Notes under the pieces: model-generated
Database searches by the model: none
Seen by the model: only the letters and a program-made list of their open reading frames with translations
Told to the model about the DNA's origin: nothing
Translations under genes and position numbers: made by a program
NCBI RefSeq assembly: GCF_001419695.1
Contig: NZ_LIRG01000043.1
Span: 1-45,640, forward strand
DNA: 45,640 nucleotides
Direction of reading: 5' to 3'
Source of the DNA: Streptomyces prasinopilosus
GTDB taxonomy: Bacteria; Actinomycetota; Actinomycetes; Streptomycetales; Streptomycetaceae
Shown here: one piece after another, positions 2,984 to 43,465 of the stretch
Layout: each line of letters begins with the position of its first letter
Numbering within the stretch: position 1 is the first letter of the stretch

Positions 2984-2997
2984 GAGGGTCCCCCCGC

Positions 2998-8818: not shown

Positions 8819-8829
8819 CGTCGTGCTCC

Positions 8830-9726
8830 TCACACTGTCGCGGCCCGGGTGTGGGCGCAGATGGCGGCGGCCAGCGGCTCATGGACCGAGAGGGGCAGGG
8901 CGTGCCCCATGTTCTCGATCTCCACGACCCGGGCGCCGGGGATCCGGTCGGCGAGGTGCCGGGCGTGCGGCGGCGGGGCCGCGGGGTCGCACATCGCCTG
9001 GACCGCCAGCACCGGTGTGGTGACGCGGGACAACTCCGCCCCCCGTGACACCGGCGGCTGCGGGATCATGTGGTGCACGACCGGTTCGTCGAACGTTCCC
9101 GCGTGCCCGGCGGCCAGGAGTTCACGGCGTCGGAACTCGTCCGCGTCGAAGGGCACTCCCTCCCCGTTGAGCAGGCGCCACTTCTCCACCCGGCGCTCCA
9201 GTCGCTCCTCGTCCGTCCCGGCCGGCTGCTGGAGCAACGTCATCATGTCGAGGAACCGCCGGGTGGGCGCCGGCAGTCCGCTGACGGACGGCTCACCCTT
9301 GAGAGCCGCCTCCAGGTCGGCGTCGAAGTCGACGTCGAGCGCGCCCCCCAGCATCACGGTGAGGGTGAGGAGCCGCTCCGGAGCGTCCAGGGCGAGCAAC
9401 TGGCCGATGGTGTGCCCCAGCGACATGCCCACCACATGGGCGGCGCGGACCTGCCAGCAGTCCAGTACGGCCAGCGCGTCGGCGGCCAGCTCGTCGAAGC
9501 CGTAGGGGCGGAGCGCGAAGTCGCACCGGGAGGAGCGCCCGGTGTCCCGGTGGTCGTAGCGGATCACGAAGTGTCCGGCCGCGACCAGGCGTTCGACGAA
9601 CTCGTCCGGCCACGACCTGGCCGAGAGGTTGCCGCCGGCGATCAGGAGCATCGGGGCGTCGGCCGGATCGCCGAGCCCCTCGCTCCACAGCGTCACCCCG
9701 TCGTTGGTGCTCGTGCGTGTCGGCAT
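8830..9726 (-). CDS. dnrP: Anthracycline 15-methylesterase (RdmC/DnrP type)
   Basis: A 298-residue alpha/beta hydrolase. The nucleophile elbow GMSLG puts the catalytic serine at residue 102, the same number as in RdmC. The acid is probably Asp247 (QAMCDPAAP) and the base His275 (NMGHALP). The oxyanion region is [11 protein letters not shown]. The family removes the methyl ester at C-10 of glycosylated anthracyclines. In daunorubicin formation this precedes loss of the C-10 carboxyl, and DnrK or DoxA then act. Start ATG with GGGAAGGG about 10 bases upstream; 30 bases separate it from dnrK. Confidence 0.93.
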
Positions 9727-11309: not shown

Positions 11310-11409
11310 TATTCTTTCCCTTCCGTATCGGAAACGGCGACACCGGCGGTGACCGCGGCAACAAGTGTTGTTTCTTTCCGCGGTGGCGTACAAGGGTTTC
11401 GGAGGCGCC

Positions 11410-23117: not shown

Positions 23118-23119
23118 GG

Positions 23120-23575
23120 TCAGTCCAGCCCGTCCCGGGTGACGGTGCGGTGCTTGACGCGCCACTCGCCCGCCTCCCGCACCAGGACGTCCGTGCACAC
23201 CGTGCTGCGGCGCAGCACCGGGTCGCCGTCGCGCGGCGTCTCCAGCACCACCGCGTAACTGCGGGCCGTGGCCTCGTCGGGCTTTCCGCCGACGGTCAGC
23301 ATGCCGATCCAGTGCCGTCGGGTGACCCCTTCGGCGGCGAACCGGTCCGTGGTCCGCCGCGCGGCCCGTGCGATGTCCGTGACCCCGCGGACCGCCTCGC
23401 CCCCCACCTCGAAGACGCCGTCGCGGGTGAACGTGCGCGCCCAGTCCTCGGCCCTGCCGTCGTCCAGGAGCTGCATCTGCCGGGCGTAGAACCGCTGTAT
23501 CTGGAGGTAGGTGCCGGGGTCCGCCGAATCCGCCGACTCGGTCGTCGGCACGTCGTCCGCCGCAAGCGCGTCCAT
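23120..23575 (-). CDS. dpsH: SnoaL/NTF2-like protein of early cyclisation
   Basis: A 151-residue NTF2-fold protein (RFYARQMQLLDDGRAEDWARTFTRDGVFEV, then a C-terminal beta sheet ending VKHRTVTRDG). Related proteins act as polyketide cyclases, isomerases or cofactor-free hydroxylases. By place next to dnmT and dpsG it corresponds to dpsH, which in S. peucetius influences starter choice and cyclisation pattern. The direct reaction is unclear. ATG 23575 has GAGGG at the right distance; ATG 23581 lies immediately after it and is less likely. Confidence 0.75.
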   Translation of the reverse strand: MDALAADDVPTTESADSADPGTYLQIQRFYARQMQLLDDGRAEDWARTFTRDGVFEVGGEAVRGVTDIARAARRTTDRFAAEGVTRRHWIGMLTVGGKPDEATARSYAVVLETPRDGDPVLRRSTVCTDVLVREAGEWRVKHRTVTRDGLD

Positions 23576-28152: not shown

Positions 28153-29265
28153 GTGTCCACCCACGTCTGGCAATACCTCGATGAATACCGGGAAGAACGC
28201 GCCGACATTCTCGATGCGGTGGAAACCGTATTCGAGTCCGGCCGGCTCATTCTCGGAAGCAGCGTCCGCTCTTTCGAGGAGGAGTTCGCCGCCTATCACG
28301 GGCTGCCGCACTGCACCGGCGTCGACAACGGCACCAACGCGCTGGTCCTCGGCCTGCGGGCACTCGGCATCGGTCCGGGGGACGAGGTCGTGACGGTCTC
28401 CAACACCGCGGCCCCCACCGTGGTCGCCATCGACGCCGTAGGCGCCACCCCCGTCTTCGTCGACGTGCGGGAGGACGACCACCTCATGGACACCGACCGG
28501 CTCCGGTCGGTGATCGGCCCGCGCACCCGTTGCCTGCTGCCGGTCCACCTCTACGGACAGAGCGTGGACATGGCCCCGGTGCTCCGGCTCGCCGCCGAGC
28601 ACGACCTGAAGGTACTGGAGGACTGCGCTCAGGCCCACGGCGCCCGCCGCCACGGACGGCTGGTGGGCACCCAGGGCCATGCGGCGGCCTTCTCCTTCTA
28701 CCCGACCAAGGTCCTCGGCGCCTACGGCGACGGCGGCGCCGTCGTGACGCCGGACGCGGAGGTCGACCGGCGCCTGCGGCGGTTGCGCTACTACGGCATG
28801 GAGGAGCGCTACTACGTCGTGGAGACCCCCGGGCACAACAGCAGGCTCGACGAGGTGCAGGCCGAGATCCTGCGCCGGAAACTGCGCCGCCTCGACGCCT
28901 ACGTCGAGGGCCGCCGGACCGTCGCCCGCCGCTACGAGGAGGGACTCGGCGACCTCGACGGCCTGGTGCTGCCCACGACCGCCGAGGGCAACGACCACGT
29001 CCACTACGTGTATGTGGCGCGCCACCCCGAACGGGACCGCATCCTGGAGGCGCTCACCGCCTACGACATTCATCTGAACATCAGCTACCCGTGGCCGGTC
29101 CACACCATGAGCGGATTCGCCCACCTCGGCTACGGCCCCGGCGACCTGCCGGTGACCGAGCGGCTGGCCGGCCAGATCTTCTCCCTGCCGATGTACCCCT
29201 CGCTGCGCGCCGACGTGCAGGAGAAGGTGATCGACGCGGTCCGGGAGGTCGTCACGGGCCTGTGA
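28153..29265 (+). CDS. dnmJ: TDP-daunosamine 3-aminotransferase
   Basis: A 370-residue DegT/DnrJ/EryC1 PLP-dependent sugar aminotransferase. The PLP lysine is in [15 protein letters not shown]; the cofactor-binding acid is in [10 protein letters not shown]. It installs the C-3 amino group of daunosamine. GTG start with AAGGAG upstream, 22 bases after dnrI, so both are probably co-transcribed. It ends 2 bases before the convergent dnmV stop. Confidence 0.95.
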
Positions 29266-29267
29266 CC

Positions 29268-30191
29268 TCAGCCCGGGGTGCCGTGCGCGGTCCGCCACAT
29301 GCTGTGGACGGAGTCCCTCAGACCGATGCGCGGCGCCCAGGGCAGCAGCCGCCGGGCTCGCCCGATGTCCAGCCGGGTCCAGTCGCCGCCCTTGCTCCGG
29401 ACCGGCGCGGCCCGGCGGTCGACCCGGTCCTCCGGAAAGGCGGCGGCCTCCAGCAGCCAGTCGACCAGGTCACCGATCGGCACGGCGTCGCCGCGCCCGA
29501 TGTTGACGACCAGCCCGCCGACCTCCGGAGCCCGCCCGGCCCGCACCACCGCCTGCGCGACGTCCCGCACGTCGACGAAGTCCCGCCGGGCGTCGGCGAC
29601 GCTCAACTCCAGCCGTCCGCCGTGCGCGAGGGCGGCCTTGACCCGCGCCATCAGGGCGGCCAGGAAACTCTCCTGCGGCGGGTGCGGGCCCGACATGTTC
29701 GCCGCGCGCAGCACCACCGCGTCCAGCACACCGGCCCGCGCGGCGGTCAGGACGGCCGACGAGGTCTCCAGTTTGATGCGCGCGTACGGCGTGACCGGCT
29801 CCGGCACCAGGTCCTCGCGCAGCAGCGTGCCGGCCGGGACGGGACCGTACTCGTGCACCGAACCCAGATGGACCAGCCGGGGCCGGTACGGGAGCAGTGC
29901 GAGGGCCTTCACCAGATGCCGCACCAGCCGCAGGTGCGAGTACGTCATCTCCTCCTCGGTGTCGCCCCAGCCGCCCGCCGCGTTGACCACGACGTCCGCC
30001 GGGGGATCGCCCAGCACCGCGGCGATCCGCCCGGGCGCGGCGGCCGCGAGATCCAGCCCGGTGAACCCGCACCCGTTCAGATGCGGTGCCGGGTGACGGG
30101 CCACGCCGTGCACGTCCCACCCCTGCGCCGCGTACGCCGCACAGACCTGCCGGCCGACGCTGCCCGTCGCCCCCAGCACCACGACCCGCAT
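29268..30191 (-). CDS. dnmV: TDP-sugar 4-ketoreductase
   Basis: A 307-residue extended SDR/epimerase-type protein: GATGSVG at the N-terminus (about residues 7-13), catalytic tyrosine in TPYARIKLE, and FVDVRDVAQAV in the C-terminal half. DnmV makes the last reduction, at C-4, in TDP-L-daunosamine synthesis. The ATG follows the dnmU stop by 7 bases with GGGGAGGGG upstream. Last gene of dnmZ-dnmU-dnmV. Confidence 0.92.
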   Translation of the reverse strand: MRVVVLGATGSVGRQVCAAYAAQGWDVHGVARHPAPHLNGCGFTGLDLAAAAPGRIAAVLGDPPADVVVNAAGGWGDTEEEMTYSHLRLVRHLVKALALLPYRPRLVHLGSVHEYGPVPAGTLLREDLVPEPVTPYARIKLETSSAVLTAARAGVLDAVVLRAANMSGPHPPQESFLAALMARVKAALAHGGRLELSVADARRDFVDVRDVAQAVVRAGRAPEVGGLVVNIGRGDAVPIGDLVDWLLEAAAFPEDRVDRRAAPVRSKGGDWTRLDIGRARRLLPWAPRIGLRDSVHSMWRTAHGTPG

Positions 30192-30198
30192 GCCCGCC

Positions 30199-30825
30199 TC
30201 ACCCCTCCCCACGTGTCCCCGCCGGCGGCCACAGCTCCGACTCGACCGCCCGGCACGCGGCGTACTCCGGAAGGGTCCCGGCGGCCCGGGCCCGCCCCAG
30301 GGTCGGTGCCGCCCGGTCCCGGCCGGACAGCAGGGGCTCCAGGTCGCCCGGCACGGGCAGCCCGAGCGCCGGGTCCAGCACGGACACGGCGAGTTCGTTC
30401 GCCTGCACGTACTCCCCGGACAGCATGTACGACATGACGGTGTCGTCCTCCAGGGCCACGAAGGCGTGTCCCACTCCGACCGGGAAGTACACCGCCCGGA
30501 ACTCCCGGGTGTCCAGCTCGACGGCGTCCCACTGGCCGTACGTCGGGGAGCCGACCCGCACGTCGACGACCATGTCCAGCGACCTGCCGCGGGCGCAGTA
30601 CACGTACTTGGCCGAGCCCGGCGGTGTCACGGTGTAGTGCACGCCCCGCACCACCCCACGCCGCGACCGGCTGTGATTCGTCTGCCGCACCGGGAAGAGC
30701 CGGTGGCCGACCGCTGCCGTGAACGCATCCTCCCGGAACGGCGAGACGAACAGCCCCCGCTCGTCCGGGAACACCTCCGGCTCGAACGTGAACGCCCCTC
30801 GCACCGTCAGTTCCCGTACCTTCAT
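30199..30825 (-). CDS. dnmU: TDP-4-keto-6-deoxyhexose epimerase (RmlC type)
   Basis: A 208-residue cupin of the RmlC family: FPDERGLFVSPFRED, QTNHSRSRRGVVRGVHY with the catalytic histidine in RGVHY, and the basic and tyrosine region FPVGVGHAFVALEDDTVMSYM. It inverts C-5 (and possibly C-3) so that the L-sugar is made. GGAGG upstream of the ATG. 62 bases downstream of dnmZ. Confidence 0.94.
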   Translation of the reverse strand: MKVRELTVRGAFTFEPEVFPDERGLFVSPFREDAFTAAVGHRLFPVRQTNHSRSRRGVVRGVHYTVTPPGSAKYVYCARGRSLDMVVDVRVGSPTYGQWDAVELDTREFRAVYFPVGVGHAFVALEDDTVMSYMLSGEYVQANELAVSVLDPALGLPVPGDLEPLLSGRDRAAPTLGRARAAGTLPEYAACRAVESELWPPAGTRGEG

Positions 30826-30886: not shown

Positions 30887-32107
30887 TCACCGGCCGAGTG
30901 CCACTTCGCTCAGGTAGTCGACGCCGTCCGTGAAGTTGTAGGGGTGCATGAACCCGCCCGCCCGGACATCGCGGTACAGGCGTGCCAGGGGATGGGAGTT
31001 GCTGTAGCCGACCCCGCCCACGAGCGTCAGACAGTCGTCCACCACATCCACGGCGTGCCGGTTGACCAGCAGCTTGGCGTACTGGAAGGGCGTCATCATC
31101 GCGCGGCCCCGGGCGGCGAGGTCGCCGCTGAGGTCGTCGGCGAGCCGGTCGGCGGTGGTCAGCGCGCTCGCCACCGCGGTGTGCAGCGCGAACAGCCGGG
31201 CGTCGATCCCGGCCATCGTGGTCCGCACCCCGGCCGGCGGCGCGCCGCCGCGCCTGCGCAGTTCCGCGACGGCGATCCCACGGGCGGCCCCGGCGATGCC
31301 GACGTAGATACCCAGCATGGCGATCGAGCTGACCGTCTGCCCGGCGAGCGCCGCGTCGTCGCGGACGCCCGGCTCGCCGCGCGGCAGGACCCGGTCGCGG
31401 TCCACGGGACAGCCGTCGAAGACGATGTCCACGCTGCCCGAGGACCGCATCCCCATGCCGTCCCAGTTGTCCAGCACGGTCAGGCCCGGGCTCGTGCGCG
31501 CGACCACCGGCGCGGCCAGCCGGACGGGGGCGCCCGCCTCCTCCAGCCGGGCCGACACCACGTAGTGGGTGGCGATCCCGGCCATGCTGACCAGTGTCTT
31601 GCGGCCGTCCAGCCGGTAGGATCCGTCCGCGGCGCGGGTGAGCACGGTGGTGCCGCGCACGTCCTTCACCGCTCCGCAGATCACGGCCTCGCCCGCCCCC
31701 ATCTGCCGGAGCAGGTCCTCGGCGAACGGCCGTGTCGACGGCGCCCCGTGCCGCCGCTCGAAGTCCAGGGTCAGGCCCCGGCTGAACTGCATGTGCAGGG
31801 CAAGTGCCACGCCCGCGTCCCGGCCGGCGATCCGGGCCAGGGCCAGCGCGACGTCGTGCAGCGAGTGGACGCCGAGCCCCCCGAGGTCCTCCGGGACGGT
31901 GGCGCCCAGCGCTCCCTCCTTGCGCATTCGGTCGAACAGGCTGACGGGCAGAGTGGCCTCGCGGTCGTTCTCCCGGCTCTCCGCCTCCAGGGTCGGCAGA
32001 TACCGCTCCAAGAGGTCGAGCAGCCGTCGCCCGGCCGGAGTCTTGGGTTCGCACAGACCGTTGTCGGCCAGGACACCGGAGTGTTCGTGCACAGACGCCT
32101 CTGTCAT
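30887..32107 (-). CDS. dnmZ: Flavin-dependent amino-sugar N-oxygenase (nitrososynthase)
   Basis: A 406-residue acyl-CoA-dehydrogenase-fold flavoprotein (N-terminal helices with PEDLGGLGVHSLHDVALALARIAG, middle beta domain, C-terminal helices with LVGGVGYSNSHPLARLYRD). DnmZ and its relatives ORF36, KijD3 and RubN8 oxidise TDP-3-aminosugars to nitroso compounds. Daunosamine itself keeps a free amine, so this enzyme does not belong to the main route; it was linked to the modified sugar of baumycins. Start ATG with GAGGAGCC. Divergent from dpsY across SARP-like repeats. Confidence 0.93.
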   Translation of the reverse strand: MTEASVHEHSGVLADNGLCEPKTPAGRRLLDLLERYLPTLEAESRENDREATLPVSLFDRMRKEGALGATVPEDLGGLGVHSLHDVALALARIAGRDAGVALALHMQFSRGLTLDFERRHGAPSTRPFAEDLLRQMGAGEAVICGAVKDVRGTTVLTRAADGSYRLDGRKTLVSMAGIATHYVVSARLEEAGAPVRLAAPVVARTSPGLTVLDNWDGMGMRSSGSVDIVFDGCPVDRDRVLPRGEPGVRDDAALAGQTVSSIAMLGIYVGIAGAARGIAVAELRRRGGAPPAGVRTTMAGIDARLFALHTAVASALTTADRLADDLSGDLAARGRAMMTPFQYAKLLVNRHAVDVVDDCLTLVGGVGYSNSHPLARLYRDVRAGGFMHPYNFTDGVDYLSEVALGR

Positions 32108-32266: not shown

Positions 32267-33052
32267 ATGAGCATGCGGATCATCGACATCTCCAGCGCGG
32301 TGGACGCGTCGGGATGGGAACCGGACGAAGTGCGGCACGAGGTGCTCAGCCCTCGGGACGGCGCCGTCCACATGAGTGAGGAGATGCGGCGTCACTTCGG
32401 CGTGGAGTTCGACCCCGACGAATTGCCCGACGGTGAGTTCCTGTCGCTCGACAGGCTCACGCTCACGTCCCACACCGGCACGCACATAGACGCTCCCTCC
32501 CACTACGGCTCGCGGGCGCACTACGGCGACGGCAGGCCGCGGAACATCGACGAGCTGCCGCTCGACTGGTTCTACGGCCCGGGGCTGCTGCTCGACCTCA
32601 CCGGTTGCGAGGGGCCGACGGCCGGCGCCGGGGACCTGGAGAAGGAACTGGCCCGCATCGGCCGGGTGCCGGAGCCGGGCACCATCGTGCTGCTCCGCAC
32701 CGGTGCCTTCGAGAGGGTGGGGACGGAGCGGTACTTCACCGACTTCACCGGTCTGGACGGTCCCGCCGTGAACCTGCTGCTCGACCACGGTGTGCGGGTC
32801 ATCGGCACCGACGCGTTCAGCCTGGACGCGCCGTTCGGCGCCGTCATCCGCCGGTACCGGGAGACGGGTGACCGGTCGGTGCTCTGGCCGGCGCACGTCA
32901 CCGGCCGGCAGCGGGAGTACTGCCAGATCGAGCGACTGGGGAACCTGGCCGCGCTGCCGGGGTGCGACGGCTTCCACGTCGCCTGCTTCCCGGTGAAGAT
33001 CGCCGGCGCGGGCGCCGGCTGGGCCCGCGCGGTCGCCTTCGTCGACGAATGA
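32267..33052 (+). CDS. dpsY: Kynurenine-formamidase-like cyclase
   Basis: A 261-residue protein of the metal-dependent 'putative cyclase' family with its signature HTGTHIDAPSH (HxGTHxDxPxH, about residues 77-87). In S. peucetius DpsY is needed for correct second/third-ring cyclisation toward aklanonic acid. ATG 32267 has GAGAGGAGCGGAGG upstream; a second ATG is two codons further. dnrX follows after 62 bases. Confidence 0.92.
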   Translation: MSMRIIDISSAVDASGWEPDEVRHEVLSPRDGAVHMSEEMRRHFGVEFDPDELPDGEFLSLDRLTLTSHTGTHIDAPSHYGSRAHYGDGRPRNIDELPLDWFYGPGLLLDLTGCEGPTAGAGDLEKELARIGRVPEPGTIVLLRTGAFERVGTERYFTDFTGLDGPAVNLLLDHGVRVIGTDAFSLDAPFGAVIRRYRETGDRSVLWPAHVTGRQREYCQIERLGNLAALPGCDGFHVACFPVKIAGAGAGWARAVAFVDE

Positions 33053-33114
33053 GTGTCCCGGAACGTTCCCGGCGGTGGCCCCGGCCCGGCGGCCACCCAG
33101 CATCGAGAGGGATC

Positions 33115-34344
33115 ATGGAGCCGAACGAATCGACATGTCGTATCTGCGGTGGTCGAGTACGGGAGTTCTTCGACTTCGGCCGCCAGCCGCTGTCCGACCA
33201 CTTCCCGTCGGAGGACGAGCTCGACGACGAGTTCTTCTTCCGGCTCGCGGTCGGGATGTGCGCCACGTGCACCATGGTCCAGCTGCTGGAGGAGGTGCCC
33301 CGGGACCGCATGTTCCGCTACGACTACCCGTACCACTCGTCGGGGTCCGAGCGGATGCGCGAGCACTTCGCGGCCACCGCCCGCCGGCTGATCGACACCG
33401 AGCTGACCGGGCAGGACCCGTTCTGCGTGGAGATCGGCAGCAACGACGGGGTGATGCTCCGCACGGTGCGCGACGCCGGTGTCCGGCACCTGGGCGTGGA
33501 GCCCTCCGGGGGTGTCGCGGACGTGTCCCGGGCCGAGGGCGTCCAGGTGCGGACCGCGTTCTTCGAGGAGTCCACGGCCCGGGAGATCGCCGAGCAGCAC
33601 GGGCCCGCGAACGTCGTCTACGCGGCCAACACCATCTGTCACATCCCCTACCTGGACTCCGTCTTCCGCGGCGTCGACGCCCTGCTCACTCCGGACGGCG
33701 TCTTCGTCTTCGAGGATCCCTACCTCGGCGACATCATCGAGAAGAACACCTTCGACCAGATCTACGACGAGCACTTCTACCTGTTCACGGCCCGTTCGGT
33801 GAGCACCACCGCCCAACGCTTCGGGTTCGAACTGGTCGACGTCGAACGGCTCCCGGTACACGGCGGCGAGGTCCGCTACACCATCGCCCGCGCGGGCAGG
33901 CGGCAGCCGAGCCCCCGGGTCGGCGAGCTCATCGCCGAGGAGAACCGGCGCGGGCTCGCCGACCTGACGACGCTGGAGAAGTTCGGCGCCCAGGTCAAGC
34001 GGGTCTGCTGGGACCTGGTGGCCCGGCTGCGCGAGTTGCGTGACCTCGGCTTCTACATCGTCGGGTACGGGGCGACCGCCAAGAGCGCCACGGTGCTCAA
34101 CTACGCGGGGATCGGCCCTGATCTGCTGCCGTGCGTCTACGACACCACGCCGGCCAAGATCGGCCGCCGGCTCCCCGGATCGCACATCCCCATCCGCTCC
34201 GCGGAGGAGTTCCGAGCCCCCTACCCCGACTACGCGCTGCTCTTCGCCTGGAACCATCTGGAAGAAGTCCAGGCGCGAGAGGCGGAGTTCACGAAGCAGG
34301 GCGGCCGCTGGATCCTCTACGTCCCGGAGTTCCGGATCGGCTGA
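33115..34344 (+). CDS. dnrX: NDP-sugar C-methyltransferase-like protein
   Basis: A 409-residue protein with the full architecture of TylC3/EvaC-type C-3 sugar methyltransferases: N-terminal zinc site CRICGG plus CATC, central SAM domain VEIGSNDGVMLRTVRDAGVRHLGVEPS, then the C-terminal Rossmann-like part GYGATAKSATVLNY and DTTPAKIGRRLPGSHIPI. Daunosamine has no C-methyl branch, so the substrate must be another sugar. The place after dpsY equals dnrX of S. peucetius, connected with formation of acid-sensitive (baumycin-like) products. ATG 33115 has GAGAGGG in front. The 3' end overlaps the convergent oxidase gene by 56 bases. Confidence 0.8.
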   Translation: MEPNESTCRICGGRVREFFDFGRQPLSDHFPSEDELDDEFFFRLAVGMCATCTMVQLLEEVPRDRMFRYDYPYHSSGSERMREHFAATARRLIDTELTGQDPFCVEIGSNDGVMLRTVRDAGVRHLGVEPSGGVADVSRAEGVQVRTAFFEESTAREIAEQHGPANVVYAANTICHIPYLDSVFRGVDALLTPDGVFVFEDPYLGDIIEKNTFDQIYDEHFYLFTARSVSTTAQRFGFELVDVERLPVHGGEVRYTIARAGRRQPSPRVGELIAEENRRGLADLTTLEKFGAQVKRVCWDLVARLRELRDLGFYIVGYGATAKSATVLNYAGIGPDLLPCVYDTTPAKIGRRLPGSHIPIRSAEEFRAPYPDYALLFAWNHLEEVQAREAEFTKQGGRWILYVPEFRIG

Positions 34345-35980
34345 TCCCGGGGGCGTCGTCCCCGGGCAGCCGGACGGAGAGGGCGTGCCGGAAGACGTCG
34401 TCCGGATCCCAGCGTTCCTTGGCCCGCTGGAGCAGGGCGTAGTTCTCCCGGAAGTACAGACGGTGCCAGGGCACGCCGCTGCGGTTGAGGTCCGGCTCGG
34501 CCAGGTCGGCGTCGGCGTAGTTCACGAAGGCACCCCCGTAGCCGCGATCGGGGTCGGGCACTCCGCCGGCGTCGCCGAAGAACTCCTCGTAGGACGCCCG
34601 GACCCAGTCCAGGTGGAGGGCGTCCTCTGCCTCGTCGAACCAGAACACCGACCAGTAGGTCTTGAGCACCGCGTCCCGGTGGGCCATGGCCGTGTCCGCC
34701 GGGCCGGGCCGGTTCACCTCACCGCCGTGCGAGAGCAGGTAGACCGTCGCGGCGGGGTTGTGGTAGTCGGACGTGTCGGTGAGCCGCCGGTACACCAGCC
34801 GGGCCTGCCGTTCGTCCCACCCGGTGCGCAGGAAGGCCGCCTTGGACTTGAACCGGCCCTTGACCCCGGCGAACTCGTCCGGGACGAGTGTCGCCGCGAG
34901 CCACGGCAGCGTGGTCGCCGAGACCTCCGGGCGGGCGCCGACGTTCCTCGACACCTCCGCGATGAACCGGTCGGTGAGCTCCTGCGCGTCGGGCCGCATG
35001 GCGTCGACGGCCGTCTCCAGCGTCAGGGGCCCGCCGCCGGTCCGGGGCAGGGCGAGACTGTTGTCGAGCCGGGTGCCCGGGTCGTCGGGGGCCGCGTGCC
35101 GCTCGTGCCAGGTGCCGAAGTTCCCCACGAGCGTGAGGAAGGCGGCCTCGTCGATGCTCTGCCAGTCCCAGCGCACCGTCTTGCGTAACACCGAGGCCGG
35201 TGGCGCGGGCAGCAGCCGGCCCGGGTCCGCGGGCCGGGAGCCCGCGTCCGCGCCGGGGGAGCGGAACAGGTAGCGCGTGACCAGACCGAAGCCGCCCGCG
35301 CCCCCACCGGTGTGGGCCCACCACAGGTCACGGTGCGGATCCGACGGCTCCCGGGTGGCCCGCACCAGCCGTGCCCGCCCGCCTGAGTCCACCACCACGA
35401 CCTCGACCCCGTGAAGATGGTCGACCGACAGCCCGTACCTGCGGGACAGAGCTCCGCCCCCGCCGCCCGCCACATGACCGCCGACCCCGACCTCGGGGCA
35501 GCGTCCGGCCGGGACGGTCACGCCCCACCCGAGGTACAGGCTCCGGTACATGGTTCCGAGGGTGGCCCCCGAGTCGACGGAGAACGCGTCCAGTTCCTCG
35601 TCGTAGTACACCGACCGCATCTCGGACACGTCGATCACCGTGGTGACGGCGGGGTCGTCCACGAGCGACTCGAAGCAGTGCCCTCCGCTGCGCACCGCCA
35701 GCCGGGTGCCGTCGCGCACGCTGTCCTGCACCGCCCGTACGGCCTGCTCCGCGGTGGCCACCACCCGGATGGTGTCGGGGTCGGGGGCGAAACGGGCGTT
35801 GATGCCGCGGCCGACCAGATCGGGGTAGCGGGGATCGTGCCGGCCGACGACGGAGGCCGGCCGTGTTCGTGTGTGCGCCGCTGAGGGAGTCTGCGGGAAC
35901 CGGACCACGGGAGGCGCCCCTTCCAGGTGTCGGTGAAATCTCCGGGACATGTCTCCGGGGACAGTAGGTGTGCCGCTCAC
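34289..35980 (-). CDS. Berberine-bridge-type FAD oxidoreductase (AknOx-like)
   Basis: A protein of up to 563 residues of the BBE/p-cresol methylhydroxylase family. Both covalent FAD anchors are present: His in RSGGHCFES and Cys in AGRCPEVGVGGHVAGGGGG, as in bicovalent AknOx. The C-terminal BBE motif is YFRENYALLQRAKERWDPDDVFRHALSV. AknOx oxidises terminal sugars of aclacinomycin, so this enzyme may oxidise a further sugar. It might be the gene called dnrW in dnr maps, but I am not certain. The start is open: GTG 35980 has GAGG upstream, ATG 35950 and a GTG near residue 24 are alternatives. One codon (35186-35188) is TTA, suggesting bldA dependence. Downstream of drrB on the same strand. Confidence 0.85.
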   Translation of the reverse strand: MSGTPTVPGDMSRRFHRHLEGAPPVVRFPQTPSAAHTRTRPASVVGRHDPRYPDLVGRGINARFAPDPDTIRVVATAEQAVRAVQDSVRDGTRLAVRSGGHCFESLVDDPAVTTVIDVSEMRSVYYDEELDAFSVDSGATLGTMYRSLYLGWGVTVPAGRCPEVGVGGHVAGGGGGALSRRYGLSVDHLHGVEVVVVDSGGRARLVRATREPSDPHRDLWWAHTGGGAGGFGLVTRYLFRSPGADAGSRPADPGRLLPAPPASVLRKTVRWDWQSIDEAAFLTLVGNFGTWHERHAAPDDPGTRLDNSLALPRTGGGPLTLETAVDAMRPDAQELTDRFIAEVSRNVGARPEVSATTLPWLAATLVPDEFAGVKGRFKSKAAFLRTGWDERQARLVYRRLTDTSDYHNPAATVYLLSHGGEVNRPGPADTAMAHRDAVLKTYWSVFWFDEAEDALHLDWVRASYEEFFGDAGGVPDPDRGYGGAFVNYADADLAEPDLNRSGVPWHRLYFRENYALLQRAKERWDPDDVFRHALSVRLPGDDAPGISRSGTPGRRGSSGRPAS

Positions 35981-36031
35981 ACTCCCTCAACAACGCTCCA
36001 GCGCGGTGCGAGCGGCACTCCGGCACCCGTG

Positions 36032-36883
36032 TCAGTGGGCGTTCTTGTTGCGGTACAGACGCATGGTCAGCGGTGCGAAGACGGCCACCAGACCGGCGGA
36101 GACGCACAGGACCAGGCCCACGTCCCAGAAGCCGGCGGTACCGTGCATGAGCTCGCGGGAGGCCGTCGCCGCGTGGCTCATCGGGTTGGCGTCGACGACG
36201 GCCTGCATCCAGCCCGGCATCGTCTCCGGCATGACGAAGATGTTGCTCATGAACAGCAGCGGATACAGCACGATCATGCTGGTCCCCGAGACCCGCTCGG
36301 GCTCGCTGGCCACCACGCCCAGGGCGGCGAAGATCCAGCTGACGCTGAACCCGAAGACGATGAGCACCAGGACCGCGGCCAGTACGCCGAGGAAGCCGCC
36401 GTCGGGCCGGAAGCCCAGCAGCAGGCCGAGGGACACCGTGGTCGCCAGGGCGACGACGTAGCGGAGCACGTCACCGAGGAGACTGCCCGCCAGCGTCGCC
36501 GGCTGCCAGAAGGGGAGCGTCCGGAAACGGTCGAAGATGCCCTTGTGGATGTCCGTGTTGAGCGAGGTGCCGGTGTAGACCGTCATCATGACGACCGCCT
36601 GCACCGTCACGCCCGGAAGGTAGAACTGCAGGTATTCCTCGGTGGAGTCCGCGAACGCCCCGCCGAACAGGTATGTGAACATCAGCAGGAAGATCAGCGG
36701 CATCAGGACGATGTCGATCAGTTGCACCGGGAAGTGCTTGAACGCCATCATCGCCCGCCACAGATGGGTCAGCGTGGCGGACACCGCCGTCGCGCGGGCC
36801 GGGCGTTCACCCGCGGACAGCACCGTCCGCAGCCGGCCGCCCGCAGCGGTCGTGGAATCCACGGTGTCGGGGGATGTGGTCAT
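36032..36883 (-). CDS. drrB: ABC-2 type membrane exporter, anthracycline efflux
   Basis: A 283-residue ABC-2 permease with about six hydrophobic segments; examples are [36 protein letters not shown] and [20 protein letters not shown]. The end RLYRNKNAH and length agree with DrrB. Together with DrrA it exports daunorubicin/doxorubicin through the cytoplasmic membrane. The ATG overlaps the drrA stop (ATGA), the known translational coupling of this pair. Confidence 0.96.
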
Positions 36884-37872
36884 GCCGCCCTCTCCTCTTC
36901 CGCCGTTTCCTCGGCGTGCCGGTCCTCGGCCGGATGGCCGGTCAGGGCCAGGAACACCTCGTCGAGACTGGACTGGCCGAGGGAGAAGCTGCGTACCTCC
37001 AGCGGCGTACGCGACAACTCGGCCAGGGCCCGCATGGCCTGCCGGGGGTCGTCGATCCGTGCGGTCAGCGCCGCCGGGTCGGAGTCGCGGTGGACCGTGA
37101 CGCCCAGTTCCGCGCTCAGCAGCCGTTCCGCCTCGGCGCGCGACCGGGCGTCGTGCAGGCGCAGCCGCAGGACGTTGGATCCGAGCGAGGACTTCAGCTC
37201 CCCGGTGGTGCCCTCCGCGATCATCCGGCCGTGGTCGATGACCGCGACGCGGTCGGCCAGTTGGTCCGCCTCGTCGAGGTACTGCGTGGTCAGCAGCACC
37301 GTCGTGCCGGCGTTCACCAGTGCTCGGACGATGTCCCAGACCTGGTTCCGGCTGCGCGGGTCGAGGCCGGTGGTCGGTTCGTCCAGGAAGAGCAGGTCGG
37401 GGGTGACGACGATGCTCGCGGCGATGTCGAGCCGCCGCCGCATACCACCGGAGTAGGTCTTCAGGAGCCGGTCGCGGGCGTCACCGAGGCCGAACCCGTC
37501 GATCAGTTCGGCGGCGCGCTCCCTGGCCCGGGCCCAGGAGTAGCCCTGGAGCCGGCCCATCATGACGAGATTCTCCGTGCCGGTCAGGCCCTCGTCCACG
37601 GAGGCGTACTGACCGGTGACGCTGATCCTGCGGCGGACCGTGTCGGGCTCGTCCGTCACGTCGTGACCGAAGACCCGGGCCGTGCCGCCGTCCGGACGCA
37701 GCAACGTCGCCAGCATGCGGATGGTGGTGGACTTGCCGGAGCCGTTCGGTCCCAGGATCCCGTAGACGAGACCGGTCGGGACGCTGAGGTCCAGGCCGTC
37801 CACCGCCCTCGTTCCGTTGTAGACCTTGACGAGCCCGGACGTTTCGATGGCCCATGTCGGCTGCGTGTTCAC
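36880..37872 (-). CDS. drrA: ABC transporter ATPase, anthracycline efflux
   Basis: A 330-residue ABC ATPase, the length recalled for DrrA. Walker [11 protein letters not shown] (about residues 44-53), Q-loop TGQYASVDE, signature [12 protein letters not shown], Walker [14 protein letters not shown]-loop replaced by [11 protein letters not shown] (Gln instead of the usual His, as in many DrrA-type ATPases). The C-terminal extension ends in an acidic EETAEEE tract. GTG start with GGGGGG upstream. Divergent from dnrF. Confidence 0.96.
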
Positions 37873-37926
37873 AGAACGCCCCCCGTAGTCACATGGAGCG
37901 GACAAAACGTGCACTGTAAATGATTT

Positions 37927-37987
37927 CGGTCACTCGGCTTCACGTTGAGTACCGTAGCTTCCAATGAGGACACTTCATGGCCGCGAT
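37927..37987. promoter_or_regulatory. drrA/dnrF intergenic operator candidate
   Basis: The sequence CACTTCATGGCCGCGAT at 37971-37987 recurs with one change at 40738-40754 in the dnrO/dnrN interval, and the preceding bases (AATG.GG.) also agree. A separate CGGTCACTC at 37927-37935 also recurs there (40734-40742). The site centres on a CCATGG/TCATGG core with flanking CCGC. Shared placement in two regulator/resistance promoters suggests a common regulator, possibly the WYL-type protein. Inference from sequence only. Confidence 0.5.
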
Positions 37988-38103
37988 GGCCCGGTTCGCC
38001 GAGCCATTTTCCGTGCGGCGCTCCACCGGTCCTCGTGACCCATTCGAGCAGGGCGCCCGACGCTGGGGTGCGGCCGCAGGCGCCGCGAACCCGGGAGGTT
38101 GAG

Positions 38104-39714
38104 GTGGCCTTGACGAAGCCGGATGTCGATGTCCTCGTGGTGGGCGGCGGTCTCGGAGGGCTGTCCACCGCCTTGTTCCTCGCCCGCCGGGGCGTGCGGG
38201 TCCTGCTGGTGGAGCGGCACGCCACCACCTCGGTCCTGCCCAAGGCGGCCGGCCAGAACCCGCGCACCATGGAGCTGTTCCGCTTCGGCGGCGTGGCCGA
38301 CGAGATCCTGGCCACGGACGACATCCGCGGCGCCCAGGGCGACTTCACCATCAAGGTCGTGGAGCGGGTGGGCGGCCGCGTGCTGCACAGCTTCGCGGAG
38401 AGCTTCGAGGAGCTGGTCGGGGCGACCGAGCGGTGCACGCCCATGCCCTGGGCGCTCGCCCCCCAGGACAGGGTGGAGCCCGTCCTGGTGGCCCACGCCG
38501 CCAAGCACGGCGCGGACATCCGGTTCGCCACCGAACTGGTTTCCTTCCAGGCGGGAGACGACGGTGTCACCGCCCGTCTGCGCGACCTGAACACGGGAGC
38601 GGAGAGCACGGTGAGCGCCCGCTACCTGGTGGCCGCCGACGGACCCCGCAGCGCGATCCGGGAGAGCCTGGGCATCACCCGACACGGCCACGGCACCCTG
38701 GCCCACTTCATGGGCGTCATCTTCGAGGCCGACCTCACCGCCGTCGTACCGCCCGGCTCCACCGGCTGGTACTACCTGCAACACCCGCTCTTCACCGGTA
38801 CGTTCGGCCCCACCGACCGGCCCAACCGGCACACCTTCTACGTCCGCTACGACCCCGAACGCGGCGAGACGCCGGACGACTACACACCGCAGCGCTGCAC
38901 CGAGCTGATCCGGCTGGCCGTCGACGCGCCCGGGCTCGTCCCGGACATCCTCGACATCCAGGCGTGGGACATGGCGGCGTACATCGCCGACCGGTGGCGC
39001 GAAGGGCCGGTGCTGTTGGTCGGTGACGCCGCCAAGGTCACCCCGCCCACCGGGGGAATGGGCGGCAACACCGCCATCGGCGACGGGTTCGACGTGGCCT
39101 GGAAGCTGGCCGCCGTGCTGCGCGGCGAGGCGGGCGAGCGGCTCCTCGACAGTTACGGAGCGGAGCGGTCGCTGGTGGCCCACCTCGTCGTCGACGAGTC
39201 CCTCGCCGTCTACGCCCAGCGCATGGCCCCCCACCTGCTCGGCAGCGTTCCCGAGGAACGCGGTACGGCGCAGGTCGTCCTCGGCTTCCGCTACCGCTCC
39301 GACGCCGTGGCCGCCGAGGACGACGACCCCGAGCCGGCCGAGGACCCGCGACGTCCGTCCGGCCGGCCCGGCTTCCGCGCCCCCCACGTCTGGATCGAAC
39401 AGGACGGGACGCGGCGTTCCACCGTCGAGTTGTTCGGCGACCGATGGGTGCTCCTGGCGGCGCCGGAGGGCGGCCCGTGGGCACGGGCCGCCCTCCGCGC
39501 CGCAGGAGAGCTGGACGTGCGCCTCGACGCCCATCTCGTCGGCCGCGATGTCGCCGACCCTTCCGGCGAACTGACGCGGGCCTACGGGATCGGCCGGGCG
39601 GGGGCCGTCCTGGTGCGCCCGGACGGCGTGGTCGCCTGGCGCACGGCGGCGGCGCCCGGGCCCGAGGCCCAGGACCTGCTGAGCGCCCTGTTCACCCGGC
39701 TGCTGGCCCGCTGA
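38104..39714 (+). CDS. dnrF: Aklavinone 11-hydroxylase
   Basis: A 536-residue class A flavin monooxygenase of the RdmE/PgaE/DnrF group. FAD motif VVGGGLGGLS (about residues 11-20), DG motif AADGPRSAIRESLG, and second FAD motif LLVGDAAKVTPPTGGMGGN. The thioredoxin-like C-terminal domain lies at about 400-536. From memory it is nearly identical to S. peucetius DnrF. It hydroxylates C-11 of aklavinone, giving epsilon-rhodomycinone. GTG start with GGGAGG 6 bases upstream. Its end overlaps the convergent regulator gene by 23 bases. Confidence 0.95.
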   Translation: MALTKPDVDVLVVGGGLGGLSTALFLARRGVRVLLVERHATTSVLPKAAGQNPRTMELFRFGGVADEILATDDIRGAQGDFTIKVVERVGGRVLHSFAESFEELVGATERCTPMPWALAPQDRVEPVLVAHAAKHGADIRFATELVSFQAGDDGVTARLRDLNTGAESTVSARYLVAADGPRSAIRESLGITRHGHGTLAHFMGVIFEADLTAVVPPGSTGWYYLQHPLFTGTFGPTDRPNRHTFYVRYDPERGETPDDYTPQRCTELIRLAVDAPGLVPDILDIQAWDMAAYIADRWREGPVLLVGDAAKVTPPTGGMGGNTAIGDGFDVAWKLAAVLRGEAGERLLDSYGAERSLVAHLVVDESLAVYAQRMAPHLLGSVPEERGTAQVVLGFRYRSDAVAAEDDDPEPAEDPRRPSGRPGFRAPHVWIEQDGTRRSTVELFGDRWVLLAAPEGGPWARAALRAAGELDVRLDAHLVGRDVADPSGELTRAYGIGRAGAVLVRPDGVVAWRTAAAPGPEAQDLLSALFTRLLAR

Positions 39715-40711
39715 CCGGAACCTCCCGTGGCGGCGCCGCCACGGAGGGGCCCGGCCCCGGCGACGCGGCTCGGGCCAGCCGTTCCGACAACTCCCGGATG
39801 TAGTCGATCAGTTCAGGCGGCTCGTGCACCTCGAACTCGATGCCGAACATCCCGATGGTGAGCGCCAGCCACTCCAGCGAGTCGGCGGCCGAACGCAGTC
39901 GGCACGTCCGGTCGTCGACCGCGGTGAGGATCCCGTCGCGCGGGCGGATCCGCTCCGCCACCACCTCGACCGGCGCGTGCAGGGTGACCAGCGCCCGGTA
40001 GCTGGCCAACGAGGACGTGATCGACTGCGCCACGTAGGCCGCCGCGTCCTCGGCCGGCAACTCGCGCTGCTGGAAACGCACCCCCGTCGACAGCAACGAT
40101 TCCATGCGGTCCACGCGGAAGGTGCGCCAGTCCTGCCGCCCCATGTCCCAGGACAGCACGTACCACTTGCGGTTCACGTGGACCAGACGGTACGGCTCCA
40201 CCAGGCGGTTGCTCGTCTCCCCGTCGCGCTTGCGGTAGGTGAACCCCAGCCGCTGCCGGTCGCGGCACGCCTGGGCCACCGACACGAGGTGCTCGGGGCT
40301 CACGGTCGGGGACACCGTGAACATGGGAACGGTGTACATCTGCAGGGCGTTGACCCGGCTGCGCAGCCGCTTGGGCAGCACCTGCTCCAGCTTGGCCAGC
40401 GCGCGGATCGAGGTGTCCTCGATGTCCGCCACGCTTCCCCCCGCGGCCGTCCGCAACCCGACCGCGATGGCGACCGCCTCGTCGTCGTCGAGGAGCAGCG
40501 GCGGAAGACTGGCACCGGCCTCCAGCCGGTAGCCCCCGCCGACGCCCGGTATGGCGTGAACCGGGTAGCCCAGATCCCGCAACCGCTCCACGTCCCGGCG
40601 CAGCGTCCGCGGACTGATCCCGAGCCGCTCCGCCAGCTTGTGCCCCGGCCAGTCCCGGCTGTTCTGCAGGAGGGACAGCAGACGGAGCATGCGGGACGGC
40701 GTCTCAGTCAT
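39692..40711 (-). CDS. dnrO: WYL-domain transcriptional regulator, dnrO position
   Basis: A 339-residue regulator: N-terminal DeoR/HTH_11-type winged helix (HKLAERLGISPRTLRRDVERL, about residues 18-38), then a WYL domain (about 135-215; LGFTYRKRDGE, RLVHVNRKWYVLSWDMGRQDWRTFRVDRM) that may sense a ligand. It is divergent from dnrN and has about the length I recall for DnrO, the daunorubicin-binding repressor of dnrN and of itself. I therefore use that symbol, with the reservation that DnrO is often described with other family names. A repeated motif 27 bases upstream of its start is a plausible own operator. Confidence 0.72.
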   Translation of the reverse strand: MTETPSRMLRLLSLLQNSRDWPGHKLAERLGISPRTLRRDVERLRDLGYPVHAIPGVGGGYRLEAGASLPPLLLDDDEAVAIAVGLRTAAGGSVADIEDTSIRALAKLEQVLPKRLRSRVNALQMYTVPMFTVSPTVSPEHLVSVAQACRDRQRLGFTYRKRDGETSNRLVEPYRLVHVNRKWYVLSWDMGRQDWRTFRVDRMESLLSTGVRFQQRELPAEDAAAYVAQSITSSLASYRALVTLHAPVEVVAERIRPRDGILTAVDDRTCRLRSAADSLEWLALTIGMFGIEFEVHEPPELIDYIRELSERLARAASPGPGPSVAAPPREVPVSGPAAG

Positions 40712-40737
40712 GTTCCCAGAGTGGCACGAAATGCGGT

Positions 40738-40754
40738 CACTCCATGGCCGCGAT
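40738..40754. promoter_or_regulatory. dnrO/dnrN intergenic operator candidate
   Basis: CACTCCATGGCCGCGAT, one mismatch from the copy at 37971-37987 between drrA and dnrF. It lies 27 bases upstream of the dnrO start codon and contains the palindrome CCATGG, flanked by GCGG on the left and CCGC on the right. It is well placed for autoregulation of dnrO. Confidence 0.52.
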
Positions 40755-40814
40755 ATCGCCATCTTTTCCCTCCGCCCCCACAGTGACCCCGTAGCCACTG
40801 CCCGAATCGCCTCT

Positions 40815-40820
40815 TATAGT
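40815..40820 (+). promoter_or_regulatory. Possible -10 element of dnrN
   Basis: TATAGT is an excellent -10 hexamer, but no clear -35 is seen 16-18 bases upstream, as is common for activator- or regulator-dependent promoters. If used, it gives dnrN an untranslated leader of about 300 bases, which includes a small ORF and a terminator-like hairpin. Confidence 0.45.
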
Positions 40821-40880
40821 CGTACGTGGGCTCGGTTGGTGAGACCGTGCCAGTTTTGCCGGGAGAGGACGGGGGAGTCG

Positions 40881-40997
40881 ATGAGTGGCGCTCGGGCGTG
40901 GTCCTCAGGTGCGTACTCGCCTGCACCGTTCATTCCCTGCGGGGTCCGCGGGCGCCCTCGTGAAATCACCCGGTCGGCAGAGCGGGCCGGTCCTTGA
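40881..40997 (+). CDS. Small leader ORF upstream of dnrN, 38 residues
   Basis: ATG at 40881 preceded by GGGAGAGGACGGGGGAG, a rich ribosome site, ending in TGA at 40995-40997. The product starts MSGARAWSSGAYSPAPF. It has no recognisable family. Its place between the TATAGT box and the hairpin at 41025-41061 makes a leader-peptide role possible, but no run of regulatory codons stands out apart from several Arg and Ser codons. It could also be chance. Confidence 0.3.
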   Translation: MSGARAWSSGAYSPAPFIPCGVRGRPREITRSAERAGP

Positions 40998-41024
40998 GGT
41001 CTGGGCGCTGCGTCATTCCCTTTC

Positions 41025-41065
41025 CGGCTCTGCATGGACTCGGTTAATCGTGGCAGAGCCGTTTT
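41025..41065 (+). terminator. Intrinsic-terminator-like hairpin in the dnrN leader
   Basis: CGGCTCTGC (41025-41033) and GCAGAGCCG (41053-41061) form a perfect 9-bp stem with a 19-base loop, directly followed by TTTT. A stem plus U-tract is rare in Streptomyces DNA and here lies upstream of, and in the same direction as, dnrN (start 41124). It may attenuate read-through into dnrN or end a short leader transcript. Confidence 0.6.
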
Positions 41066-41123
41066 AGTTGAAACTCGCATTACCAAGGATGGGGTTCTGT
41101 CGGTAACAATACTGAGGAGATGT

Positions 41124-41732
41124 GTGACCATACGAGTTGTGGTTGCCGAAGGGCTGGAAATGGTTCGTGCGGGGCTGGTCCTCTTACTGGAACGTGAATC
41201 GGACATCAAAGTCGTCGCTTCCACCGGCGTCGGCAGCGAGTTGATCCGGACGGTTCTGGAATACAGCCCCGACGTGGCGGTCATCGATGTCGACCTGCAC
41301 GAGCAGGAGGGCCTCCTCGCCGCCATGGCGATCCAGGAGCACCTGCCGGACTGCCGCACACTGCTCACCGCGCGATTCGCCCGGCTGGCCACCGTGCGGC
41401 AGTCGCTGGCGTCCGGTCTCGGCGGCCTGGTGCTGAAGAGCTCCCGCCCGACCAACCTCGTCGACGCCATACGCAGCGTGCACGAGGGCCGCCGCGTCTT
41501 CGACACCGAACTGACGCTCGCGGCCTGGGGCAACACCGGGTGCCCGCTCACGGAACGGGAGATGGAGATTCTCCAACTCGCCGCCGCGGGGGATGACATC
41601 AACGAGATCGCCGTCAAGCTGTCGCTCTCCCCCGGGACGGTCCGCAACTACTTGACGACGACCGTCCGGAAGATGGACGCGCGCAACCGGCTCGACGCGG
41701 TACGCATCGCCAGCATGTCCGGCTGGATATGA
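41124..41732 (+). CDS. dnrN: Response-regulator-type activator of dnrI
   Basis: A 202-residue NarL/FixJ-type response regulator: receiver domain (TIRVVVAEGLEMVRAGLVLLLE; phospho-acceptor region PDVAVIDVDLHEQEG) and C-terminal LuxR helix-turn-helix (PLTEREMEILQLAAAGDDINEIAVKLSLSPGTVRNYLTT). No sensor kinase is adjacent, as in S. peucetius, where DnrN activates dnrI. GTG start with GAGGAG 4 bases upstream. Codon 21 (41184-41186) is TTA, so production may depend on bldA tRNA and thereby on growth phase. Confidence 0.94.
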   Translation: MTIRVVVAEGLEMVRAGLVLLLERESDIKVVASTGVGSELIRTVLEYSPDVAVIDVDLHEQEGLLAAMAIQEHLPDCRTLLTARFARLATVRQSLASGLGGLVLKSSRPTNLVDAIRSVHEGRRVFDTELTLAAWGNTGCPLTEREMEILQLAAAGDDINEIAVKLSLSPGTVRNYLTTTVRKMDARNRLDAVRIASMSGWI

Positions 41733-41786
41733 GCTCCGGTCACCGGCGGCGGAGGGCCCGTCGACCCAGGATCCCGTGAGCGGCGC

Positions 41787-42376
41787 TCACCAGGAGCGGT
41801 GATCGCGGCACCAGGCCACGGTCTCGGCGAGCAAGTCCCAGAAAGTCCCGGCGCGGCCGGCACCCGGGCAGCGCGGTGATCTTCCCGTGGTCGACGGCGC
41901 AGCGCCGGTCGTGCCCCTTGCGGTCGGCGACGAACTCCACGGAGTCCCGGCCGGCGTCCACCGCGTCCGGCAGCAGAGCCGTCGGCTCCTTGCCGGGAAG
42001 CCCGGCGCCATCGCCGATGTCGTAGATCTTCCCCGGGGGAGCCCGCCTCCCCGACCGGTTCCACCGCGTCGACGTGGTCCTCGACGTGCAGTCGGTTCCG
42101 CAGGTTGCCGCCGTCACCGTGGAGCGGTACCCGGCCACCGCTCGGCAGGGTCGTCACGAAACGCGGAATGACCTTCTCCGGATGCTGAGGGGTGCCCTCC
42201 GCCGCACCGGAGCCGGACGGGTCGGAGGCACGCGTGAGCAGGATCCGGGCGTCGGGGCGCTCCGTGCGGAACTTGTCGACGAGGTCCGCGATGCCGCCGA
42301 CCACGAAGCCGTCCCCGAGGTACATGACGAAATCCCCCTCACCGAGCCAGTCACGGGCGATCCGGCCTCCCCCCAA
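41787..42376 (-). pseudogene. Fused remnant of TDP-glucose synthase (dnmL) and TDP-glucose 4,6-dehydratase (dnmM)
   Basis: On the minus strand the first part reads IARDWLGEGDFVMYLGDGFV and VDKFRTERPDARILLTR, the middle of an RmlA-type nucleotidyltransferase. Near 42185 it jumps into an RmlB-type dehydratase (IPRFVTTLPSGGRVPLHGDG, LHVEDHVDAVEPVGE). The frame then shifts near 42030 (KIYDIGDG, FVADRKGHDRRCAVDHGKIT) and again near 41840 (FWDLLAETVAWCRDHRSW). Both N-termini and all catalytic parts except the RmlB C-terminus are missing. So at least one large deletion and two frameshifts destroyed dnmL and dnmM. S. peucetius also has a frameshifted dnmM, compensated by a gene elsewhere. Convergent with dnrN. 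Confidence 0.88.
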
Positions 42377-42617
42377 GGCCCTCGTGAGTGATCACCTGCC
42401 CGGGAACCTCCCGGCGCCCCGGGACGCTCCGTACAGGCCGTCCTTGAGCACCAGGGGCGGCCTGCTCCCGACGGAGTCCGGCCTCGGCGAGCCGGCGGTC
42501 AGGACGGCCGGCTCGGCGGGGGTCCGGGACGTCAGCGCCTGCCCCGGACGCGCATCCGGCTCGTCGAGGCCGATGCGGCCCTCGGCCGCCGCGTCGCGCG
42601 GGCCGCTCCACCACCAC
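42377..42617. other. Junction between the sugar-gene remnant and the rhomboid repeat
   Basis: No gene can be assigned. A minus-strand frame reading RPPLVLKDGLYGASRGAGRF and stopping near 42398 looks protein-like but matches nothing I recognise; it may be a further remnant. This interval is the right border of the cluster. Confidence 0.4.
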
Positions 42618-42866
42618 TGCCCGGCCCCTGGCGGGTGGCCCTACCAGGAGCGTCGGGTCTGCCGTCCGAAGAGGACGCCGCCCGGTTCGGGCGGTGGGGG
42701 AGTGCCGGGTTTGAGGGGCCAGGCGATCAGCATGCCGGCCACGAAGCCGGCGACGTGGGCCAGGTAGGCCACGGTCCCGGCGCCGGTGACGCCCGCGCCG
42801 GAGGAGTACACCGCCTGGAGCACGAACCACAGGCCCAGCACGATCCAGGCCGGCAGCCGCAGCGGC
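42618..42866. repeat. Right copy of the 249-bp direct repeat flanking the cluster
   Basis: Matches 2998-3246 without gaps (constant offset 39,620 bases), with 13 mismatches. It comprises the last 226 bases of the intact rhomboid gene and 23 bases beyond its stop. The same orientation in both places makes the intervening cluster a potential unit for deletion or amplification by homologous recombination. Confidence 0.93.
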
Positions 42867-43465
42867 AGGAAGATCAGGAAGGGGACGAGGACCCAGACCC
42901 GGGCCCTCGGGTAGAGGACCAGGTAGGCGCCGAGGACGCCGGCGATCGCCCCGGAGGCGCCGATCAGCGGCTCGCCCGAACCGGAGTCCGCGAGGGCGAA
43001 GACGTACGCCGCCGCGTACCCGCACACCAGGTAGAACAGCAGGTACCGCACGTGCCCCATCCGGTCCTCGATGTTGTTGCCGAAGATCCACAGGAAGAGC
43101 ATGTTGCCCAGCAGGTGCAGCCAGCCGCCGTGCAGGAACATCGCCGTGAGCACACTCAGCTCGGGGGACTTGTCGTACGCCGGCGGCGCCACCACGCATC
43201 CCGGCCCCTGCGGGCCCACGCCCGTCTCGCCCGTGGGCACCAGACGCGGCATGTGGTGGTGGATCAGCTCCTGCGGCACGGCCGCGTACCGGTCCAGGAA
43301 CGCCTGGAGGCCGCACAGCTCCGCGAGACCGCCCCCGCCGCCCGTCAGCGAGCCGACGACACCGGGCGTGAGGAACACGAAGACGGCGAAGTTCGCGGCG
43401 ATCAGCGCATAGGTGACCCAGGGGGTGCGCCGTGCCGGATTCACGTCGTGAACGGGGATGACCAC
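42641..43465 (-). CDS. Rhomboid family intramembrane serine protease
   Basis: A 274-residue rhomboid with about six membrane segments. The catalytic serine is in GASGAIAGVLGAY, the histidine in AYLAHVAGFVAGM, and HGGWLHLLGNMLFLWIFGNNIED holds the conserved His/Asn residues of the second membrane segment. A cysteine/glycine-rich loop lies between TM1 and TM2. The tail RTRRSW-like end (GGVLFGRQTRRSW) is the part duplicated at 2998-3246. GTG start with GGGGAA upstream. Substrate unknown; likely chromosomal flank. Confidence 0.92.
   Translation of the reverse strand: MVIPVHDVNPARRTPWVTYALIAANFAVFVFLTPGVVGSLTGGGGGLAELCGLQAFLDRYAAVPQELIHHHMPRLVPTGETGVGPQGPGCVVAPPAYDKSPELSVLTAMFLHGGWLHLLGNMLFLWIFGNNIEDRMGHVRYLLFYLVCGYAAAYVFALADSGSGEPLIGASGAIAGVLGAYLVLYPRARVWVLVPFLIFLPLRLPAWIVLGLWFVLQAVYSSGAGVTGAGTVAYLAHVAGFVAGMLIAWPLKPGTPPPPEPGGVLFGRQTRRSW

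Follow-up and report, generated by a model that had tools for sequence, protein, structure and literature searches.

The DNA analysed here, called the window throughout, is a stretch of 45,640 nucleotides from Streptomyces prasinopilosus, namely contig C427 in a 6.4-Mb draft assembly that comprises 1,058 contigs and is 89.5% complete. It carries a daunorubicin-type cluster, recognised by DnmZ, by genes of the dnmT, dnmU, dnmJ and dnmV types and by a DrrA/DrrB-type transporter, all in one collinear block that also holds a UvrA-like gene of the drrC type, type II ketosynthase genes and a gene of the dnrN type. Cluster gene names that go beyond the Pfam and PDB labels are our own assumption. The cluster and its sugar genes are placed as follows.

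3473-42361, no strand assigned: stretch collinear, the deletion described below apart, with the daunorubicin-type cluster of the related genome G009, by genome comparison
21552-23198, minus strand: dnmT-type NDP-hexose 2,3-dehydratase gene, open and constrained
28153-29265, plus strand: dnmJ-type aminotransferase gene, open and constrained
29268-30212, minus strand: dnmV-type ketoreductase gene, open and constrained
30199-30825, minus strand: dnmU-type 3,5-epimerase gene, open and constrained
30887-32107, minus strand: dnmZ, open and constrained
41034-41732, plus strand: response regulator gene, presumably of the dnrN type, convergent neighbour of the relic and anchor for synteny

An earlier note on this DNA described the later sugar genes dnmT, dnmU, dnmJ, dnmV, dnmS and dnmQ as intact. 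That holds for the first four, but for dnmS and dnmQ only candidates can be named: two open EryCIII-type glycosyltransferase genes (6188-7483 and 20213-21544) and, at 7502-8833, an open frame that matches P450 weakly. Frame-changing indels relative to G009 occur in the ORFs checked at 11313, 29269, 33051, 38064, 38098, 40753-40784 and 41074-41114; every one of them falls either before the first Pfam domain or at the stop codon and may therefore be non-coding. The gene at 32962-34344, also within the cluster, belongs to a sugar C-methyltransferase family (Pfam Methyltransf_13 and Methyltransf_14); daunosamine needs no C-methylation.

Searching the contig database with the dnrN-type protein returned 24 loci, two of which were close (85% and 87%) and belong to S. 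coeruleorubidus ATCC 13740 (L020) and S. ruber JCM 3131 (L021). Of the 392 genomes of the genus that were sampled, which include that of the window, two more had matches of at least 70%, G009 (90%) and G347 (70%); together with the previous two they make up the four relatives used for comparison. Intact dnmL and dnmM frames lie beside dnrN at the syntenic place in all four relatives examined. Gene order beside dnrN in S. coeruleorubidus and S. ruber is the same as in the window, which is 90% and 82% identical to them, respectively, over the block 41125-42196; unlike the window, both have complete reading frames and 1,175 bp of extra DNA. What the window holds instead is a relic at 41766-42361 on the minus strand, a piece of dnmL (RmlA) joined to a piece of dnmM (RmlB).

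41766-42196, minus strand: dnmM (RmlB-type) relic, running from codon 183 to the end; it carries two +1 insertions and a new stop and no longer has its old one
42196/42197: deletion junction, at which 1,175 bp of all four relatives are missing and dnmL and dnmM are in phase
42197-42361, minus strand: dnmL (RmlA-type) relic, equivalent to codons 91-145 of the intact relatives
42361/42362: limit of homology with the relatives, where dnmL lacks codons 1-90 and a piece of another gene adjoins

The distance between the flanks of the junction is exactly 1,175 bp in each of the four relatives, and the fusion of dnmL to dnmM was made by a deletion of that length, not by a frameshift, while a second break, at 42361/42362, took the first 90 codons of dnmL. 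The earlier note had read 41787-42376 as dnmL and dnmM collapsed into one pseudogene with at least two frameshifts. The collapsed pseudogene itself is borne out, both by profile matches below cut-off and by the intact orthologues in the relatives, but its limits have moved to 41766-42361, since 42362-42376 is not dnmL. Two frameshifts do exist, as +1 insertions at 42029 and 41840, both within the dnmM part; the passage from RmlA to RmlB, however, is the work of the deletion.

Little of either gene remains. The RmlA profile TIGR01208 matches 42197-42361 (1.6e-9) over positions 91-145 of 353, and its 38.4 bits compare with a curated cut-off of 320.25 bits. The RmlB profile TIGR01181 matches 42029-42196 (2.1e-10) and, in another frame, 41842-42042 (1.2e-6), at 41.6 and 29.5 bits in the two frames against a curated cut-off of 365.1 bits; profile positions 183-300 of 321 are covered, 42196-42029 accounting for 183-238 and the other frame for the rest. 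The last 44% of dnmM is left, with a new stop at 41789-41787 that derives from a former tryptophan codon, and the place of the ancestral stop, 41768-41766, now reads TGG. Because the dnmL piece amounts to 55 codons and the dnmM piece starts at a codon boundary, the two genes are fused in phase; a reading frame 242 codons long is present there. An active fused RmlA-RmlB enzyme was rejected, as too little is left of either domain.

Changes on the window branch were scored where G009 and G347 agree, with 16 cluster genes as controls. The relic has changed at 7/173, 22/176 and 14/133 sites of codon positions 1, 2 and 3, and the controls at 87/5,356, 57/5,532 and 207/4,233. Constraint at positions 1 and 2 has been lost: taken together, these positions differ at 29/349 sites in the relic and at 144/10,888 in the controls (Fisher 8e-14), a rate about six times faster that is found on both sides of the junction. 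Since positions 1 and 2 have changed so much faster than in 16 neighbouring genes, the decay of the relic is real and old. Its total (43/482) exceeds the rate at third positions of the live genes (207/4,233); the age is an estimate from rates, and within the relic only positions 2 and 3 exceed control third positions, position 1 being about equal to them. Transitions and transversions stand at 35:8 in the relic and 232:119 in the controls, with no clear difference (P = 0.056).

At each edge the cluster abuts short, broken remnants of unrelated genes, and a pair of direct repeats lies there as well.

2991-3246, plus strand: left, decayed copy of a 256-bp repeat, identical to the right copy at 241 of 256 positions and 39,620 bp away from it
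3237-3427, minus strand: decayed fragment whose 191 bp share 77% identity with a gene on contig C625 of this genome, where the reading frame is open
42362-42624, minus strand: broken gene fragment, like a gene in genomes G027 (75%) and G036 (70%)
42611-42866, plus strand: right copy of the 256-bp direct repeat, the 3' end of the rhomboid gene
42641-43465, minus strand: rhomboid-family protease gene, chromosomal flank

The fragment at 42362-42624 gave no Pfam match in the single frame scanned and is presumably of a DUF1707/SHOCT-like family, and the gene on C625 is one that we take to encode a penicillin-binding protein. Eleven of the 15 differences between the rhomboid copies fall on the left copy, by the majority of four relatives, and all eleven lie inside the gene; two others, outside the gene, were assigned to the right copy from a poor alignment, and the remaining two are ambiguous. 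The left-edge join, 3237-3246, is an overlap of about 10 bp. As the direct repeats bracket the whole cluster, recombination between them, looping out about 39.6 kb, is conceivable. Insertion of the cluster next to the rhomboid gene, duplicating the target, was considered as a simple origin and set aside: positions 1-2990 of the window had no match in the rhomboid neighbourhoods of G009, G026, G027 and G017, and weak matches elsewhere.

The breaks could perhaps have been made by error-prone end joining, which is suggested by a deletion junction without microhomology (no base is shared at 42196/42197, judged against G009) and by the short pieces from other genes at both edges. Scars of double-strand breaks in S. 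ambofaciens, as presented in the available part of PMC5869714, arise by end joining with insertion of endogenous DNA; they show micro-homologies and deletions and, in three clones, pieces of the strain's own DNA of 30, 42 and 83 bp. It is in the deletions and the short pieces of the strain's own DNA at a healed break that the likeness lies. The scars described in that part of PMC5869714, however, were induced by a nuclease in the laboratory, whereas those in the window are putative, old and decayed, with pieces of about 190-260 bp, and the micro-homologies of the former have no counterpart at the window's deletion junction.

The relic and the edge fragments provide a small natural test of the direction of change in unconstrained Streptomyces DNA, a direction that codon selection usually obscures. 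At relic sites where S. coeruleorubidus agrees with G009 and with either S. ruber or G347, AT>GC changes affect 32/170 ancestral sites and GC>AT changes 15/376 (Fisher 6e-8); a strict count, with all four relatives agreeing, gives 25/146 and 11/309. The rhomboid duplicate at 2991-3246 shows 9/45 and 2/149, and the per-site ratio of AT>GC to GC>AT is 4.7 in the relic (95% limits 2.6-8.5) and 14.9 in the duplicate (3.3-66). The fragments at 42362-42624 (16/44 and 16/156, ratio about 3.6) and 3237-3427 (16/45 and 18/145, ratio about 2.9) have weaker polarisation, and in raw counts neither is GC-ward. As controls, the two relic pieces on the S. ruber branch have 6/152 and 11/329, and the live stretch 33950-41760 on the window branch has 80/2,024 and 142/4,952. 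Third positions of the control genes are GC-ward as well (34/134 vs 95/4,099), an excess that parsimony may inflate. For S. ambofaciens, mutation-accumulation counts in table 2 of PMC11109965, the part of that source used, give per-site ratios of 1.66 (1.1-2.5) in the wild type and 3.95 in a nucS-deleted strain, computed on the assumption of 72% GC. Selection-free DNA in this Streptomyces might drift towards GC beyond the wild-type S. ambofaciens mutation spectrum, a tentative proposal to which we give somewhat less than even odds. The counts are few, and the two remaining edge fragments give a less distinct picture. If the proposal is true, a genome-wide push (biased gene conversion, a bias in repair or selection acting on GC itself), and not only codon choice, would underlie the high GC. 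That nucS has been lost, making the strain a mutator, was rejected, a NucS_C match over cut-off being present in an open frame.

With a relic as all that is left of dnmL and dnmM, the cluster has lost both first steps to TDP-4-keto-6-deoxyglucose, just as the earlier note had it; its expectation of intact rmlA- and rmlB-type genes elsewhere in the genome was also correct. In the assembly a single RmlA and a single RmlB exceed their curated cut-offs; the two genes are adjacent on contig C801, both open and beside RmlD, although further copies may be missing from it as it is 89.5% complete. This rhamnose-type operon is the likely substitute source of TDP-4-keto-6-deoxyglucose, judging by the pathway and by the precedent of S. 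peucetius discussed below, and the C801 pair would cover both first steps and so make the cluster copies dispensable. In G009 there are three RmlA and three RmlB over cut-off, its own cluster pair included, and that pair has been kept; in G347 the one RmlA is the cluster's own and there are two RmlB, one of them with an internal stop. Across the three genomes compared, loss of the cluster pair is seen in one that has an outside pair, but G009, with outside pairs of its own, retains its cluster genes, and redundancy by itself is therefore not enough to force the loss.

Our preferred reading, to which we assign a probability of roughly 85%, is that dnmL and dnmM are a non-functional relic produced by deletion and edge truncation, with the outside RmlA/RmlB pair on C801 as the probable substitute. 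What is left of the two genes has acquired the two +1 insertions and the stop, has lost its old stop and has changed at many once-constrained positions. A different history, in which the sugar is no longer made, the cluster is on its way out and the loss of dnmL-dnmM is an early step of decay without replacement, would suit the dead-gene fragments at both edges, but it is unlikely given that the relic is old by its rate of change while the controls, on the same branch, are still low at positions 1 and 2, and that the frame-changing indels in the ORFs checked may be non-coding. The summed counts for dnmT, dnmU, dnmJ, dnmV and dnmZ on the window branch are 43/3,259 at positions 1 and 2 and 70/1,274 at position 3; that five sugar genes have kept a coding pattern on this branch argues that the pathway may still be under selection after the death of dnmL-dnmM. 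Assembly or sequencing errors at the junction and frameshifts would be easy to imagine in so fragmented a draft, yet errors would neither raise change at positions 1 and 2 about six-fold on both sides of the junction nor yield a coherent GC-ward spectrum, which makes an artefact very improbable. Equally improbable is a retained function, whether as a small chimeric protein, for which the in-phase fusion and its open frame might speak, or as a site between the cluster edge and the convergent dnrN at which transcription ends, given that the N-terminal signature of RmlA and the cofactor and catalytic regions of RmlB, at the places where we take them to lie, are gone and that constraint at positions 1 and 2 has been lost.

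The relic, by our preferred reading of deletion and truncation with an outside substitute, is an ordinary pseudogene in kind, unusual in its extent and in hitting both first steps. DnmZ of G009 (L119, 16589-17803) differs at 2/405 residues from the DnmZ of PDB 4zxv, which we take to be of S. peucetius origin, and G009 is therefore a close relative of the 4zxv source strain; DnmZ of the window is 94% identical to that of G009. An inherited S. peucetius frameshift is unlikely, since G009, whose DnmZ is nearest to PDB 4zxv, has an intact dnmL-dnmM pair, and from these sequence comparisons the loss in the window is probably independent. A second, probably independent, loss is thereby added to the single S. 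peucetius case, and the first two daunorubicin-type sugar genes can be shed where a housekeeping-type copy exists. The gene list of a cluster can consequently understate what is needed from the host, which bears on the transfer of such clusters into other hosts.

According to the title of Gallo et al. 1996, cited in PMC11676270, S. peucetius dnrM (dnmM) carries a natural frameshift, and a locus elsewhere than in the cluster suppresses it. The two cases are alike in having a broken TDP-glucose 4,6-dehydratase gene in the cluster whose role is taken over from outside, the takeover being a putative one in the window. Decay in the window has gone further than that dnrM frameshift, as the earlier note proposed, through a deletion, a truncation, two insertions and a stop; unlike in S. 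peucetius, dnmL and dnmM are both gone, by deletion plus truncation.
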